From Thermoplasmata archaeon (GTDB lineage Archaea > Thermoplasmatota > Thermoplasmata > Methanomassiliicoccales > Methanomethylophilaceae), in NCBI GenBank assembly GCA_015063135.1, contig SUTA01000009.1, forward strand, positions 25,869 through 89,868: a DNA stretch of 64,000 nt, read 5' to 3'. Shown in pieces: positions 48,697 through 61,729 of this stretch. Under the pieces are notes generated by a model, which saw only the letters and a program-made list of their open reading frames with translations, was not told where the DNA came from and searched no databases. The translations under genes and the position numbers were made by a program. Numbering within the stretch: the stretch's first letter is position 1; each line of letters starts with the position of its first letter.

Positions 48697-48700
48697 GCGA

Positions 48701-51700
48701 TCACATCGTCGTGGTAACGGTCGCAGTGTAGTCGTTGGTCGTGTACCCTGACAGCTCGGTCGGCGAATAGCTCTCACCGTCGATGAATCCTGAGACCCAA
48801 TTGCCAGATTCGTCCATCCAGATGACGCCCGGTACGGAGATCACCCTGCCTGATTGCTCGAACTGATGGTCCTCCGTATCCATGAAGATGAAGGTGCCTG
48901 CTGCGCATTGAACATACAGCTTGACCAGATCTACGCCGGATAAGGCGTCAGAACCGAAGCTGAAGGCGGATAGGTCATACCCCATGGTGGGTGCGAAGGC
49001 TGATGCAGGTAAGGTGAGCTTGGTCAATCTGGTGCAACCGCTGAATGCATCATCTCCAACCGTGCTTACATCATCCAATGTCAGCGTGGTGAGATAGTTC
49101 TTGACACTGTTACGGGTGAACAGATCCGTGGAAACGGTGATGTCTCCAGTTATCGTGATCGATGATGCTTCCATCCCATCCCATGCCGTCTTATCCGACT
49201 CACTTAAATCGGAATAGCTGTACATCGCCCCTGAGCCCATTATCACCACTATACCGTCTATGTTGAATGCCCTCGCATTCGAACCTACGGTGATGTAGCC
49301 CGCGCTGTCCTTGACCCAGAATCCACTCTCAACACTGCCGCTGAGCGCCTGCGCAGAACCAGAGCCGTCAAGTTTGAATTCCAGATCGACGCCGGAAGAA
49401 TCTGTGAACGCATTGGCATCAATGGTTACCGTTCCCGCGCCTCTGATCATCACCATGCCTATTTCGGCGTGCTTGGCGAATGCGTTCGCCCCGATGCTGC
49501 TTACGGAGCTGCCTATTATCACGGATGACAGGGACGTGGAGTCGTAACCTGTTTCCCTGTTGAAGGCAGAGGTACCGATGGAGGTCACGCCATCTGGGAA
49601 TGTTATAGAGCCAGAGAGATGGTTGTTCCCGAATGCATTCGCCCCAACAGTAATCAGACGATCCGGCAGAACCAGAGTGGATAATCCCGTTGCCTCGTAG
49701 AATGCATTCTGACCTATCGCCGTTACGGAATCAGGGATAATGATGGAGGTCAATCCGTTGAATCCGTTGAATGCATTATCTCCGATATTTCTCAAAGTTT
49801 TGCAATAGATTGAGAGACTGCTGGGAGTTGATTTGAGGGTGTCATAGCCTCTCGCGCCGGAATTCACAAAATTGATCATCGAATACGAATCCCTCTCTTT
49901 CATCGTGACCACGATCGCGAGATCGTCCAAGATCACAAGATACAAGGACTCATCCTGTGCTGAAGAGATGTCCCAGGATGTCAACGGAAGGATATTGGAT
50001 GTCGAATAGTAATGGCCTGGCTCTACCATATCGTAATCGATCACTCCCTCATCCGATATCGGAATGACGAAATCCTTGTACCAATCCGACTCGGGCAACG
50101 AATCATCTTGCCAGGAGACCGATGTGACGGTATCCGCGATGCGCAACGTCATCAGTCCAGTATTATCAAATACATCACTACCTACGGTCAACGATCCTGT
50201 AGCATTGAATGAAACAGAGCGCAACCCACTTGCATCCTTGAAAGCATTATCGTTCAGTACAGTCACGGAATTAAGATCCGCAAAAGTTACAGATGAACGG
50301 TAGAAAGCATTCTGGTTAATCGTCGTAACGTCGTTGAAAGCTATCTGATTGATCGATGAATATGCGAATGCGTAGGTGTCCACCGTGCGGACAGAGGATA
50401 GAATGGAATGGCTTTCAGTCACTCCAGCAGGCACGAGCTTGAGTACGGATTTATCAGAATTGTACATCGCACTCGTGTCCGAAACGGTAATCTTTCCGAC
50501 CTCTGAGATGCTCTGATTCTTGAAAGCTGCATTGTTGTTGGATACATAGACATGCTTGAGATTTGTGCATCCAAGGAATGCTGTCTGAGGGATGGTTGTG
50601 AGTCTAGATGGGATGTAGATGCGATCCATCCCATTCGCATTGATGCCGCATCCTGAGAATGCATACTCCCCGATGGACGTCACGGTCTCGGGTAGGGAAA
50701 ATATCTTCAGATTGGCAAGACCGGAGAACATCCTGTCACCTATGGAGGTCACACCGTCCTGGACCATAACGCGTGAGATCGTATCAGCATACTCGCTCCA
50801 CGGTGCCTCGCCTGATGGCAGACCGATCGACCCGCTCCCTATAATGATTAGCGTTGTAGAGTTGATTACTGTCCAATAGTAAGTGTTATCCTCATAAGTC
50901 GCAGAATGTATCTCCAAATTAGTCACATTGGACAGCAGAGAACCTGAAATGCCCCCTATGTGCATGTATGAATCGGCTGTGCCTTTATTGTGTACTTTTT
51001 GGTATGTCCAATTCCCTGAACCATCGACCTGATACCCATAGAGTGCAAAGCAAGCAGAGGTATCAGTGAATGTCAAACTGGCGGCCGAGCCGCCACCTTG
51101 GGATGACAAGAGAACAACATTAACCCCGTTGGTACTGCTGTTTGTTCCCAATGGAAGGGTTGTATCCACCCCATATGAGAAACCATATGCTCCCCCATAT
51201 ACCGCGATGTATGCGGCGGCATTCTATAAGCAAATGTTCGTGTTATTGAACCAAGCAAAATTTAGCCTGTCATTGTGATTTTGCGAGATCTTATATTCGT
51301 CAGTCGAATCCGAAAATATCACCTCGCTATAGTAACTCCTCGCACCGTTGAAAGCGCCGTTACACACGCTTTCAGCTGAACAGTCAATGATTTTTGTTCT
51401 ATTATCTGTCAACTCCGAATCCTGCATATAGACGATTTCATCAACTTCCTGGATAATCTGTCCATTGACTACCTGGATGTTTGTGTTCGAATCTGATATC
51501 TCGAGATGCTTCAATAACGAAGCGTAAAAGGTTCCACAACCATTGCTATTTCCGAGTACCAGGTTAACATTCGAATGGAAATAAATGGTCAACGGCGTGG
51601 TATGGTACGCGAAGGCGGATTTTCTAATATCGACCATCGATTCGGGAATCTGAACAGTACGTAGGCCGCTTCCGCCCACACCGTTATTACGAAGCATGTT

Positions 51701-53215
51701 CCCGCCTTTCTTCTCATCCGAATCTACATTTCCAGATAGTCCTTGCTGCAGGATCACATAATCCGGAGATGTATTCACCAGTACAGGATAATTTACCGTA
51801 GAGGTCTCGGTACCGCACCAAAATGCTCCGATACCTGTGATCAACCCTACAACCTTTCCGTCGATCTTCCATATATGCGAAAAGATGACTTTTGTTTCTT
51901 CCGTATTGCTGCTGTAACCTGTCGGGTAAGCGCCGTACTTGGCATTTTGACCCCTCAATGTCCCGGTAGTAAGACTCATAGTTTTGGTGCTGTAAACACA
52001 TCCCTCCTGCATCGTCCCCAGCCCTGATGCGGCATATGCCGTACCAGTGTATGTTCCTGCATCGTGTGTCGCCCCGCCATTCTCATAGTCAGAGAAGATG
52101 TAGAAGCTCACATCTGGAAACGCATCGCTGGCGATGCTGATCGTAGATCTCTCTCTGGGCAATGCGTCGAGGTTCTGATCGATGACCACCACCGTGAGGT
52201 TGGTACATCCGTCGAAGGTCTTGGATGGCACCGAATATGATGACCCGCCGAATGATGCCAGGGCGAGGTCCAGCTCCACTATGAGAAGCGATGTGCAATT
52301 CCCGAAGGTGTATGACCTGTTGCCGTCGGTGGAGAGAGATTCCAAGGTGTCCACTGACGTGTTCAGATGAACCGCCTGGAGAGCTGTGCAACCGTAGAAC
52401 GCCTTGTACCCTATGAACTCGATGCACTCGCTGAATATCAGCTGAGTGATGAAGCTGTTGCCCTCGAACGCGTTCCTTCCGATGATCTCAGTCCCATAAG
52501 GGATGATGTATACACAGTTCGGATCGTCCACCGTTCCTCCCGAGCCCACACCGTTCAGCGGATACTTCACCAAGGTCTCCTTGCCGCTGTGAGTTGTTCC
52601 TGTTGTATCCTTGTAACTGTTGGCAAAGAGCACCCCATCCTTGGAATGAAATGTTGTGTTGTTCGGACTGACGTTTATGTAGACTAAACCGGCCATCCCG
52701 TCGAAGGTCGAATAATCCATGGTATCCACGGTGGACGGGATGCCAATATCTGTTATCTCTGAGCATCCGTCGAATATGCCTGAGCCGAGCTCGGAGATGC
52801 CCTCCATTAGGGAGACCTCCGTCAAGGCGGTGAATCCCTTGAAGGCGTCATCGCTCACGGAACTAAGTATCTGTCCCCGGATTACCAGCTTCTCCGCGCT
52901 CGTCTTGTATGAATCCCACGGGCGAAGGGAAAGGTCTGCTGAGTAGTCCTGCATCGGCCCTGCCGATCTGACGTTCAGAATCAGCTCCTTCTCTCCCGCG
53001 TTCCAGCTCACATCTATCTGGGCCGGTTCCGGATCCGCGGCGAGACCGTCGCCCCCCATGATCGCGATGCCCATGACGGCCGCCAATATGAGCGCCAGGC
53101 TTAACGTGAGGATCTTGCGGGCATCCATCATCCCAGACCTTTTCGGGATGGTGTCAGCCGAGGATAATCTCGGATCCCTTGCATTTGATTCGTTGCTACT
53201 TCTTCCGTTTCTCAA
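48701..53215 (-). CDS. Giant BspA-like leucine-rich-repeat surface protein with in-frame TAG
   Basis: ORFs 51224-53215 and 48701-51169 share one frame; only TAG (51224-51226) separates them. Repeated LRR_5 motifs (FxGCTxLxxVxLPxSVTxIGxxAF) on both sides. Confidence 0.82.
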
Positions 53216-57988: not shown

Positions 57989-58261
57989 TTCTTTCACCTA
58001 TTATCGGTATTCGAAATCGTTTGCCTTTTCGGACATGGGACCGTCGACTCCCCGGCGACCTCCTAGGTAATGGGACCATCCGGTGCCGGGAAGCGTGTGA
58101 TTTAATCCGATGATAGACACCCGGCCGCCAAGAGGATAGCCAGTATGAACAGAAAGGTGGGTCAGAACAACTACGGAATTGTAGTAAATGAAGGCAGGAT
58201 GGTTTGGGAGAATCATTTAAGTAAGTTGAAACGGTATGACTACCCAGGACAGTACATGGGA

Positions 58262-59254
58262 TCGCGACCCGGAGAGGGTTCCTGCGTGATGATAATCGGA
58301 TTTAATCACTTCTGGCCCGTTCATCGCGGCCGTCGCCGTCTGATTCCGGCATCCCGCTACTGCCATACCATCCCAATGCTGTTTCCGGAGCGCGTCCGAC
58401 AGCTCCTCGGAGCACCTGTCGGACCATTCCTCCATCCTAAGCCCGGAGGGACGGATGTAACATTCTATCGTAGTGTTGATGTCCGAATGCCTCATCAGCT
58501 CCTTGAGCGTCTCCAGGGGGCACCCGCTCTCCGCCAATGTTGTGCAGTACAGCCTCCTGAGGGAATGGCATGTGACCTCTATCCCCAAGCGATCCCCCAG
58601 CCGGGAGATCCTGTTGGACATCGCAGTGAGATGCCCCCTCATCGGCACGACCCCCTTCGCGGACTCCATCACCATCAGCAGGCCGCCGAAGCTGCCCTTG
58701 CCGGACCTCCATTCCAGATACTTTTGGAGCTCCCGCCTCACAATCTCCGACATGGGCTGGCGTACCACCATCCCCCTGCGTCCGTGGCCCTTCCCCATGA
58801 CGGTTATCCCGTCCTCCCCTATGTCACCGAGGGTGATCGCGGCCATCTCCTTCCGGCGCAGACCCATGAATGCACCCAGCACGATGACCATCCTCTCTGA
58901 GGGCCCGGCGGCCTCCAGCATCATCGCCAGCTCCCCCTTCCCGATGAACTTCCTCCTAGCATGGTCCCTGTTCCACAGGAGGCCCAGCTCCTTCACTGGG
59001 TTGCTCCCTGTAAAGAACTCCACATACCTCCCCATTATGTTCAGATAGTTCCTCATGGTGCTCTCCCCTACATCCAGACCCTCCATCAGGGCCGACACCG
59101 CAGCCGCGTCGATGCATCCCGGGCCTCCGCCTATACCGCGGGCCTCCAGTATATCCTCGCACCTACCGATGACGAACTTGTAATGACGTATCGTGGCGGG
59201 CGACCTGTTCCTCAGTCCCAGGTATTCAAGATATCCGTCTATATCGCCTTTCAT
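58262..59254 (-). CDS. Tyrosine recombinase/integrase
   Basis: GAFMGLRRKEMAAI...HSLRRLYCTTLAESG...LMRHSDINTTIECYI; in-frame CGA 58262-58264. Confidence 0.87.
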
Positions 59255-59706
59255 AGATGATCGCCCGCTCCAACGGGATATCAGCCCATTGAACTTGCGC
59301 AAGGGGGTCGCAGGCAATTTGGAACCTCACATGAAGGGTCCGAATGCTCCAGCATACGTCGAAAGTTATGAGTCCAAATCCTAATGGATTCGGTCCACGC
59401 AATGGATCATGGACATGGACCATATAGAGATCTGTCCAAATGTATAGCAAGACAACCGAGATAACGCAATTTCGTATGTCAATCGACACAAAATAAAGTG
59501 GGCCTGCCCGGGCTCACAACCGTTCAGGCCAGGCATCCCGCCGCGGAGGGAATGCCGACGGCCCCCTATGTCCATTGACTTACGGTGCGCTCATCCGGGC
59601 GCTAACACCGTGCTTTTGAACCCGACCTGGAGAGGACGCCGCAGTCCGCCGATATCCTCGGCGGGATGATGCCCGGGGAGGGCGGCGTCGTTCCGAGGTT
59701 GAAACG

Positions 59707-60069
59707 ATGTCTAAAGAACAGATCATGGACAGGGCGGTGGAGCTCCTGGGTACGGCGCAGCCGGTATCGAAGCCCACTTTGAAGGAGGACGTCATGTCCT
59801 TCAGGAACGGCCACGTGTACGTCGCGCTCAAGATGGTCACGCCGTTCGATAGGGAGAAGAACGAGTACGCTGAGGCATTCCCGAGGATCACCTTCCTCGT
59901 CGATGGGAAGTACATCAGGATGCCCATAGACAGCAACCTGCTGACCTCACTCGGCAATTTCCTCGTGAAGATGGGGGATGTCCTGGAGGGTGTCAGGATC
60001 CCCGAGAAGGAGATCAACGTCGAGGATGTTAGGAACAGGATCCTCGAGCTCACCGGGGGCCTCCGATGA
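59707..60069 (+). CDS. Small conserved protein upstream of rep
   Basis: 120 aa; ends ...LTGGL CGA TGA; overlaps rep start. Confidence 0.6.
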   Translation: MSKEQIMDRAVELLGTAQPVSKPTLKEDVMSFRNGHVYVALKMVTPFDREKNEYAEAFPRITFLVDGKYIRMPIDSNLLTSLGNFLVKMGDVLEGVRIPEKEINVEDVRNRILELTGGLR

Positions 60070-61526
60070 CTATTGATTCCTCTATCGGGGACGGACCCGG
60101 AGCACAGGCCCGCACGCCCGCGGAGCGTACCGCCTCGGCAGAGCCCGCGGCGGGCGGGACGGAGCGTAGGGCCGTCCCCTCCCAAGAGGACCTCGACGAG
60201 CTCGCATACAGGATAACCGCGGTCAGCGAGCACCCAGTAACCCAATACGTCAGGGAGCTGCCGTTCGAGAGCGCTTTGTATCCTGCCAATATGTACCGTG
60301 GATTAACGGAGGACGAAGAGGAGCCCTACAGGGCGGGACTGATAACCTGGTGCCCTCCGGCGCACGATTACGAGCGCCCGAAGAGGAACGGCTGCGGGTT
60401 CATCAGGGAGAAGGGATCCAAGGGCGACAACGGCATCAGGTACACCGCATGCTCCGAGGACGACAGGCACTACGCCAAAGGGAGAAGATCCCACTGCTGG
60501 TCCCTCCACTGCCCCGTGTGCATGAACGATACCGCCCTCAGGATGGGGTCGCGTGTCGAGGAGCAGCTCAACTCCTACCTCCGCCTGATGGAGAAACAGG
60601 GGCGCGATCCGGGCGCCCTGGGGCATTGGGTTATCCCGCCTCCTCAGGAATCCGCCAAATAGTGGATCCAGACCATCGACTGCTGCAACGGCCTCAGGAA
60701 GTACATCGAGAGGTGCCTCATGGATGTGGGGGCGCGGGCGGGATGCCTGGCCTTCCATCCCTGGAGGCAGGCGGAGGATTATTGGGAGTTCTCCCCCCAC
60801 TTCCATTCCCTGCTCTTCGGGTTCCTGGACACGGACAGGTTCAGGCAGATGAATCCCGGATGGATCATCAAGAAGGTCCATGCCGATCAGGCCGTGGAAT
60901 CCATAGGCCAGACCGCCGCCTATCTGATGACGCACATGGGGCTCGGCATGGTCGAGAGGGACCCTCTGGAAGTTGATTACGACCTCAGGTTCCTCGCCCA
61001 CATGCTCCCGGGCCTCTCGGACGACTGCAACAGGAACGGCAAGGCCGATGAAAGAGAATTCAGGTTCTCCGAGCAGGACGACATCGACAGGGCATCCGGC
61101 AAGGGCAGGATGGTCGGCGACATCTCGAGGATCGATTGGCTGGAGTTCGCCAAGAAGTCGCCGAGCTACACCACGCGCATGACCTACTTCGGAGCGGCGT
61201 CCAACAGGAACATCCAGACGGTCGCCGTGGAGAGAGAGTACCGCAACAGGGTGTGCAGGGCCTGCGGCAATCCTCTGAGCGTCTATGCGGGCATCTGCGA
61301 CGGCTGCGGGGAGCCGGCGAGGTACCTCTACGACAACACGATCAAGGTGTTCAGGAGCGACCGCGACTTCGTGAAGAGGGCCCTGGACGAGCTGAGGAAC
61401 GCTGACCCGGAGAACATGCCGAAACTCTCCGAGATCTCCCCGAAGGTGTCCCTGATGGTATCCAAAGATGAGACGGCGTTCGACCGTCTGGTTCCCAGGA
61501 AAGCGGACCTCCCATGCAATGAACGA
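60066..61526 (+). CDS. Rolling-circle replication initiator (HUH endonuclease) with in-frame TAG
   Basis: HCWSLHCPVC Zn-like motif; WVIPPPQESAK[TAG]WIQTIDCC; PHFHSLLFG HUH motif; AAYLMTHMG. TAG 60660-60662 in frame with downstream ORF 60720-61580; CGA at 61524-61526. Confidence 0.8.
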
Positions 61527-61640
61527 CCTCCTGCCCGGGTGCGGATCCGTCGGACCGGCGATGAAGAACCTCCGTTCTGAGCGGAAAGAGGCTGGCCGGA
61601 CATGGGCATCGGACGATGGGCACGGATCGAGAGATCGGAA

Positions 61641-61729
61641 TATCGCAAATCACTTAAACGGAATACCGCAAATCACTTAAACAGAATACCGCAAATCACT
61701 TAATTAAAATATCACAAAACACTTAATCA
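61641..61729. repeat. Iteron-like direct repeats, four copies, 23 bp period
   Basis: AATAYCGCAAATCACTTAAAC(R) repeated at 23 bp spacing; last copy degenerate. Confidence 0.75.

Follow-up and report, generated by a model that had tools for sequence, protein, structure and literature searches.

A putative pyrrolysine codon within the gene for a probable HUH-type replication initiator of a Methanomethylophilaceae archaeon

The methyltransferases MtmB, MtbB and MttB carry an in-frame TAG codon that is read as pyrrolysine (Pyl), and the residue is both catalytic and conserved. TAG codons interrupting other genes have been described in Methanomassiliicoccales: M. alvi is reported to have 16 such genes beyond the methyltransferases (Borrel 2014, PMC4153887), and ISO4-H5 has 46, including 10 insertion-sequence elements (PMC5011839), in both cases with sense codons in relatives. 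Similarly, the Pyl of Methanosarcina Thg1 has been attributed to neutral evolution (Heinemann 2009, cited in PMC8211752), and Pyl-containing transposases have been reported (Zhang 2005, cited in PMC8211752). A structural signal after the TAG is not thought to be required for Pyl insertion (PMC8211752).

Here we describe a probable replication initiator gene (Rep) with an in-frame TAG in a 64,000-nucleotide stretch of DNA (the window) from an archaeon of rumen/gut type, whose named relatives belong to the Methanomethylophilaceae of these habitats. Like the Pyl proteins described from Methanomassiliicoccales, it features TAG in an ordinary gene in the same order of archaea, although no plasmid-type HUH Rep appears in the gene lists consulted for those proteins (PMC4153887, PMC5011839). 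It resembles Thg1 and the Pyl transposases in placing a likely Pyl at a non-essential site of a non-methyltransferase protein, but both the host lineage and the protein are different. Relative to MtmB, MtbB and MttB, it shares the in-frame TAG and would depend on the same cassette, whereas its Pyl would be neither catalytic nor conserved.

The host genome encodes a complete Pyl system. The initial annotation had presumed read-through by Pyl and proposed a search for pylT, pylS and pylB/C/D; all five are present. PylS scores over the family cut-off, pylS-pylB-pylC-pylD lie in a row adjoined by a TAG-containing mtmB, and tRNA-Pyl (pylT), with a CTCTAAAACC anticodon loop, is located directly upstream of pylS. 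TAG-bearing methyltransferase genes comprise mtmB (two copies), mtbB and mttB. The stop codon of pylB is itself a TAG (L035:8150-8152), one base before the pylC start codon.

Rep is encoded on the forward strand (60066..61580) in a single frame from ATG 60066 to TGA 61580, and the sole internal stop is TAG 60660-60662. With this codon read as a residue (position 199), the frame encodes 504 aa. The two ORFs originally noted, 60066-60662 and 60720-61580, do lie in one frame split by the TAG, with exact coordinates and no other stop, and the HUH motif is indeed downstream of it. A strand-1 or motif-1-like segment, GHWVIPPPQ (approximate coordinates 60624..60650), precedes the TAG; the HUH motif segment SPHFHSLLFG (60795..60824) and a candidate nucleophile segment, AAYLMTHM (60918..60941), follow. 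Rep homology is unbroken across the TAG in single-ORF homologues from three other species (G018, G002 and G027; residues 35-475, 68-69% identity). Because this homology is continuous, the two ORFs form one gene with an in-frame TAG and are not side by side by chance. The coding signal resumes directly after the TAG, and an ATG (60720) lies 19 codons 3' of it.

The identity of the protein as an HUH Rep is suggested by its motif, modelled topology and weak fold matches. Across 15 homologues, the invariant positions include the HW before the TAG, Cys/His clusters, P244, H245, H247 and G252 of the HUH segment (PHFH), and Y286. In the structure model, GHWVIP forms a strand (185-190), residue 199, encoded by the TAG, falls in the helix that comes next, and the HUH motif occupies a later strand (240-252). 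In this model the TAG splits the nuclease core, with strand 1 before it and strands 2-3 and the HUH motif after it; if it were not read through, the N-terminal product would be missing the HUH motif, and a protein started at ATG 60720 would be missing the first strand. A fold search against solved structures returned HUH Reps (FBNYV, WDV and pMV158; 6h8o, 6we0 and 8amu) weakly, at E 0.1-0.3 and amid many unrelated matches. Viral matches in BFVD reached E 8e-5; those below 1e-3 are nameless, and named Microvirus initiators appear from E 1.6e-3. Like the HUH rolling-circle Reps of this kind (microvirus initiators, pMV158 RepB, and geminivirus and nanovirus Reps), the window Rep appears to combine an HUH motif with a strand-helix-strand core. 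Unlike them, it features an N-terminal Cys/His region and a zinc-ribbon-like C-terminal part, its invariant Y286 sits in AYLxTH rather than the canonical YxxK, and it matches no Pfam or PHROGs family. Searches of plasmid, phage and IMG/VR collections found no relatives. The Rep-Arvir family of archaeal rolling-circle initiators is reported to lie outside the HUH superfamily (PMC13107129), whereas the window Rep has HUH. Y286 may be the nucleophile, and the protein would nick an origin.

We propose, at a probability of roughly 0.78, that this locus encodes a full-length HUH-type initiator serving an archaeal plasmid or an integrated element and that the host's tRNA-Pyl and PylS decode its one TAG as pyrrolysine to yield the 504-aa protein; ribosomes would insert Pyl while translating the Rep mRNA. 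The TAG would have arisen outside the motifs, in the helix that follows strand 1, at a variable position encoding G, E, V or R in relatives, and would be tolerated because the host translates TAG efficiently enough to be useful. Part of the product probably still ends at residue 198. The initial annotation suggested comparing homologues with a sense codon at this position, and these were found at 65-69% identity: the aligned codons are GGA (L002), GAA (L003), GGA (L004) and GTC (L005 and L083), and a paralogue in this same genome encodes AGG. The site is variable, non-motif and non-catalytic. None of the close relatives shares a TAG there; neutral Pyl sites such as that of Thg1 do not call for such conservation. 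Among full-length, single-frame homologues, 27 of 31 have no internal stop, and the other four, the window Rep included, contain one TAG each at four different positions (in homologue L092, TGAs are confined to the extreme end of the match). The residues found at these sites in homologues are G/E/V/R for the window, E (GAG) for G018, L for G026 and S/M/A for G051, and all four genomes encode pylS. Overall, the Rep TAG looks like a neutral amber acquisition that is dispensable and serves as no special switch.

The reading of TAG was also surveyed genome-wide, outside METHYLTRANSFERASES, in 1.84 Mb of this genome with 1364 genes called by codon usage. ORFs continued straight into coding sequence in 21 of 210 TAG-ended cases, compared with 3 of 983 for TGA and 3 of 171 for TAA (Fisher P 4e-13). 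By eye, six of the 21 TAG cases and two of the six TGA/TAA controls looked like antisense artefacts; with these removed, 15 TAG cases against 4 controls still give P 9e-10. In 400 kb of a Pyl-less relative, run-on ORFs were absent (0/31 TAG, 0/224 TGA and 0/55 TAA). Single Pfam domains cross the TAG in a P-type ATPase, a PaaK-like ligase, a nitroreductase, an ABC-3 permease, an acyltransferase and the methyltransferases, and no domain crosses any stop in the seven TGA/TAA candidates scanned with Pfam. The ligase, ATPase, nitroreductase, permease and acyltransferase genes, continuous apart from their TAG, lie at G000:C29:135176-136528 (L196:2176-3528), G000:C8:42838 (L154:4838-7603), C25:83175, C35:2465 and C28:57279. 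About 63% of the single-base nonsense changes possible in this genome would produce TAG, and given that bias the finding that seven of seven non-methyltransferase cases are TAG reaches a P of only about 0.04. The host very probably reads TAG as sense in many genes. Elsewhere in the genome, NifH-like and nitrogenase component 1-like genes share one frame and are parted only by a TAG (L071:5971-8109).

Some archaea reportedly read all TAG codons as Pyl, according to a report from 2025. Complete reassignment is unsupported in this genome, where TAG is the stop of about 12% of genes and tandem (back-up) stops show no excess after TAG-ended genes; because of these two observations, release and Pyl insertion probably compete at TAG. 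The corresponding share of TAG-ended genes in M. alvi is 1.6% (PMC4153887).

The best single proof of TAG reading comes from an IS110-family transposase with a TAG at codon 197 (L061:16935-17972 in G000:C8, minus strand). A second species, G030, harbors two copies (G030:C1:18618-19652 and 1563086-1564120) that are 88% identical and have their TAG at the same codon. Between this genome and G030, codon differences number 50 synonymous and 19 nonsynonymous before the TAG and 59 and 24 after it. The retention of the TAG through 109 synonymous differences, against 43 that change the amino acid, with selection on the protein continuing downstream, has hardly any explanation other than translation. 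This transposase makes a stronger case than Rep for Pyl in a mobile element.

Alternatively, Rep could be a young pseudogene, in which a recent nonsense mutation struck a decaying integrated element and the TAG is read too little to be of use. Decay is widespread among the Rep copies of the genus, which show frameshifts and mixed stops (TAG, TGA and TAA); two other Reps in this genome are intact; TAG is, by codon usage, the likeliest nonsense product; and a stop shared by no close relative is one on which selection may not yet have acted. Against this, the search for other debilitating mutations, which the initial annotation held would count against read-through, revealed neither a frameshift nor a second stop in Rep. 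Purifying selection after the TAG is as strong as in intact homologues, with no relaxation: dN/dS between the window Rep and L002 is 0.27 before the TAG and 0.33 after it, compared with 0.21 and 0.40 around the same site in intact pairs such as L002/L005, and the other three TAG-bearing Reps, whose TAGs occupy three other non-motif sites, give 0.12-0.28 after the TAG. Selection has thus been maintained, so this copy is not an old pseudogene, although a very recent nonsense mutation is compatible with the same figures. Unlike the decayed copies, full-length single-frame copies with one stop have TAG only, but given the 63% bias four of four has a P of about 0.16, and this count alone is too weak as proof. 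Together with the very probable reading of TAG elsewhere in the genome, these observations make the pseudogene an unlikely explanation.

A regulated switch, in which the Rep TAG makes replication of the element respond to the supply of Pyl (methylamines), appears less probable still. It would draw on the position of the TAG ahead of the catalytic motif, which would make replication dependent on read-through, and on the occurrence of all four TAG-bearing Reps in pylS genomes. The TAG sites differ between these Reps and fall at variable positions, the majority of homologues have no TAG, and two TAG-free Reps are present in the same genome. Folding of the RNA after the Rep TAG is nothing special (z = -0.17), and no PYLIS match was found there. 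Of the earlier suggestions, Pyl read-through is supported by the Pyl system, the sense codons in homologues, the intact frame and the genome-wide signs of TAG reading; a special or selected tie of the element's replication to the Pyl system is weakly founded.

Two separate proteins, a zinc-finger-like N-terminal one of 198 aa and an HUH protein of 286 aa starting at ATG 60720, are highly improbable: the nearby ATG would favor them, as would two relatives (G001 and G027) in which Rep can be recognised from about residue 218 onward but not before, but full-length homologues are all fused, the coding signal begins before that ATG, immediately past the TAG, and the core topology of the model, split by the TAG, speaks against a split gene.

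Read as a full-length initiator, Rep adds a plasmid-type replication protein to the likely Pyl proteins, neutral amber acquisition having already been reported for Methanomassiliicoccales genes. Rep, together with an IS110 TAG conserved in two species, supports the view that mobile DNA in gut Methanomethylophilaceae uses TAG as a working sense codon. TAG-containing genes will be split by standard gene callers, and elements with such genes may be unable to replicate where the host lacks Pyl. More speculatively, and with considerable doubt, amber codons might accumulate in the genes that elements confined to Pyl-decoding methanogens use for replication and transposition, such that the Pyl code forms a genetic barrier. 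If so, these elements would fail in non-Pyl hosts, and mobile DNA would be channelled within the lineage and depend on methylamine-driven Pyl supply.

Finally, several features flank Rep. A small conserved ORF on the same strand (59707..60069) is kept beside Rep in many relatives, and its TGA stop overlaps the Rep ATG at 60066 (ATGA). Directly 3' of Rep is a 23-bp direct repeat in 3.9 copies (61638..61726, plus strand; GAATACCGCAAATCACTTAAACA), whose exact unit, CGCAAATCACTTAA, is absent elsewhere in this genome; these may be iterons. A tyrosine recombinase (Phage_integrase; 58217..59317, minus strand) adjoins the Rep module and probably belongs to the same element. A 17-nt perfect inverted repeat pairs non-coding positions 59526-59542, upstream of the Rep module, with 60737-60753 in Rep, just after ATG 60720; it is not conserved at the same place in relatives. 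Further upstream, the minus strand at 48700-53215 encodes a long repeat-type surface protein in which 663 aa are followed by a TAG and then 840 more in-frame codons.
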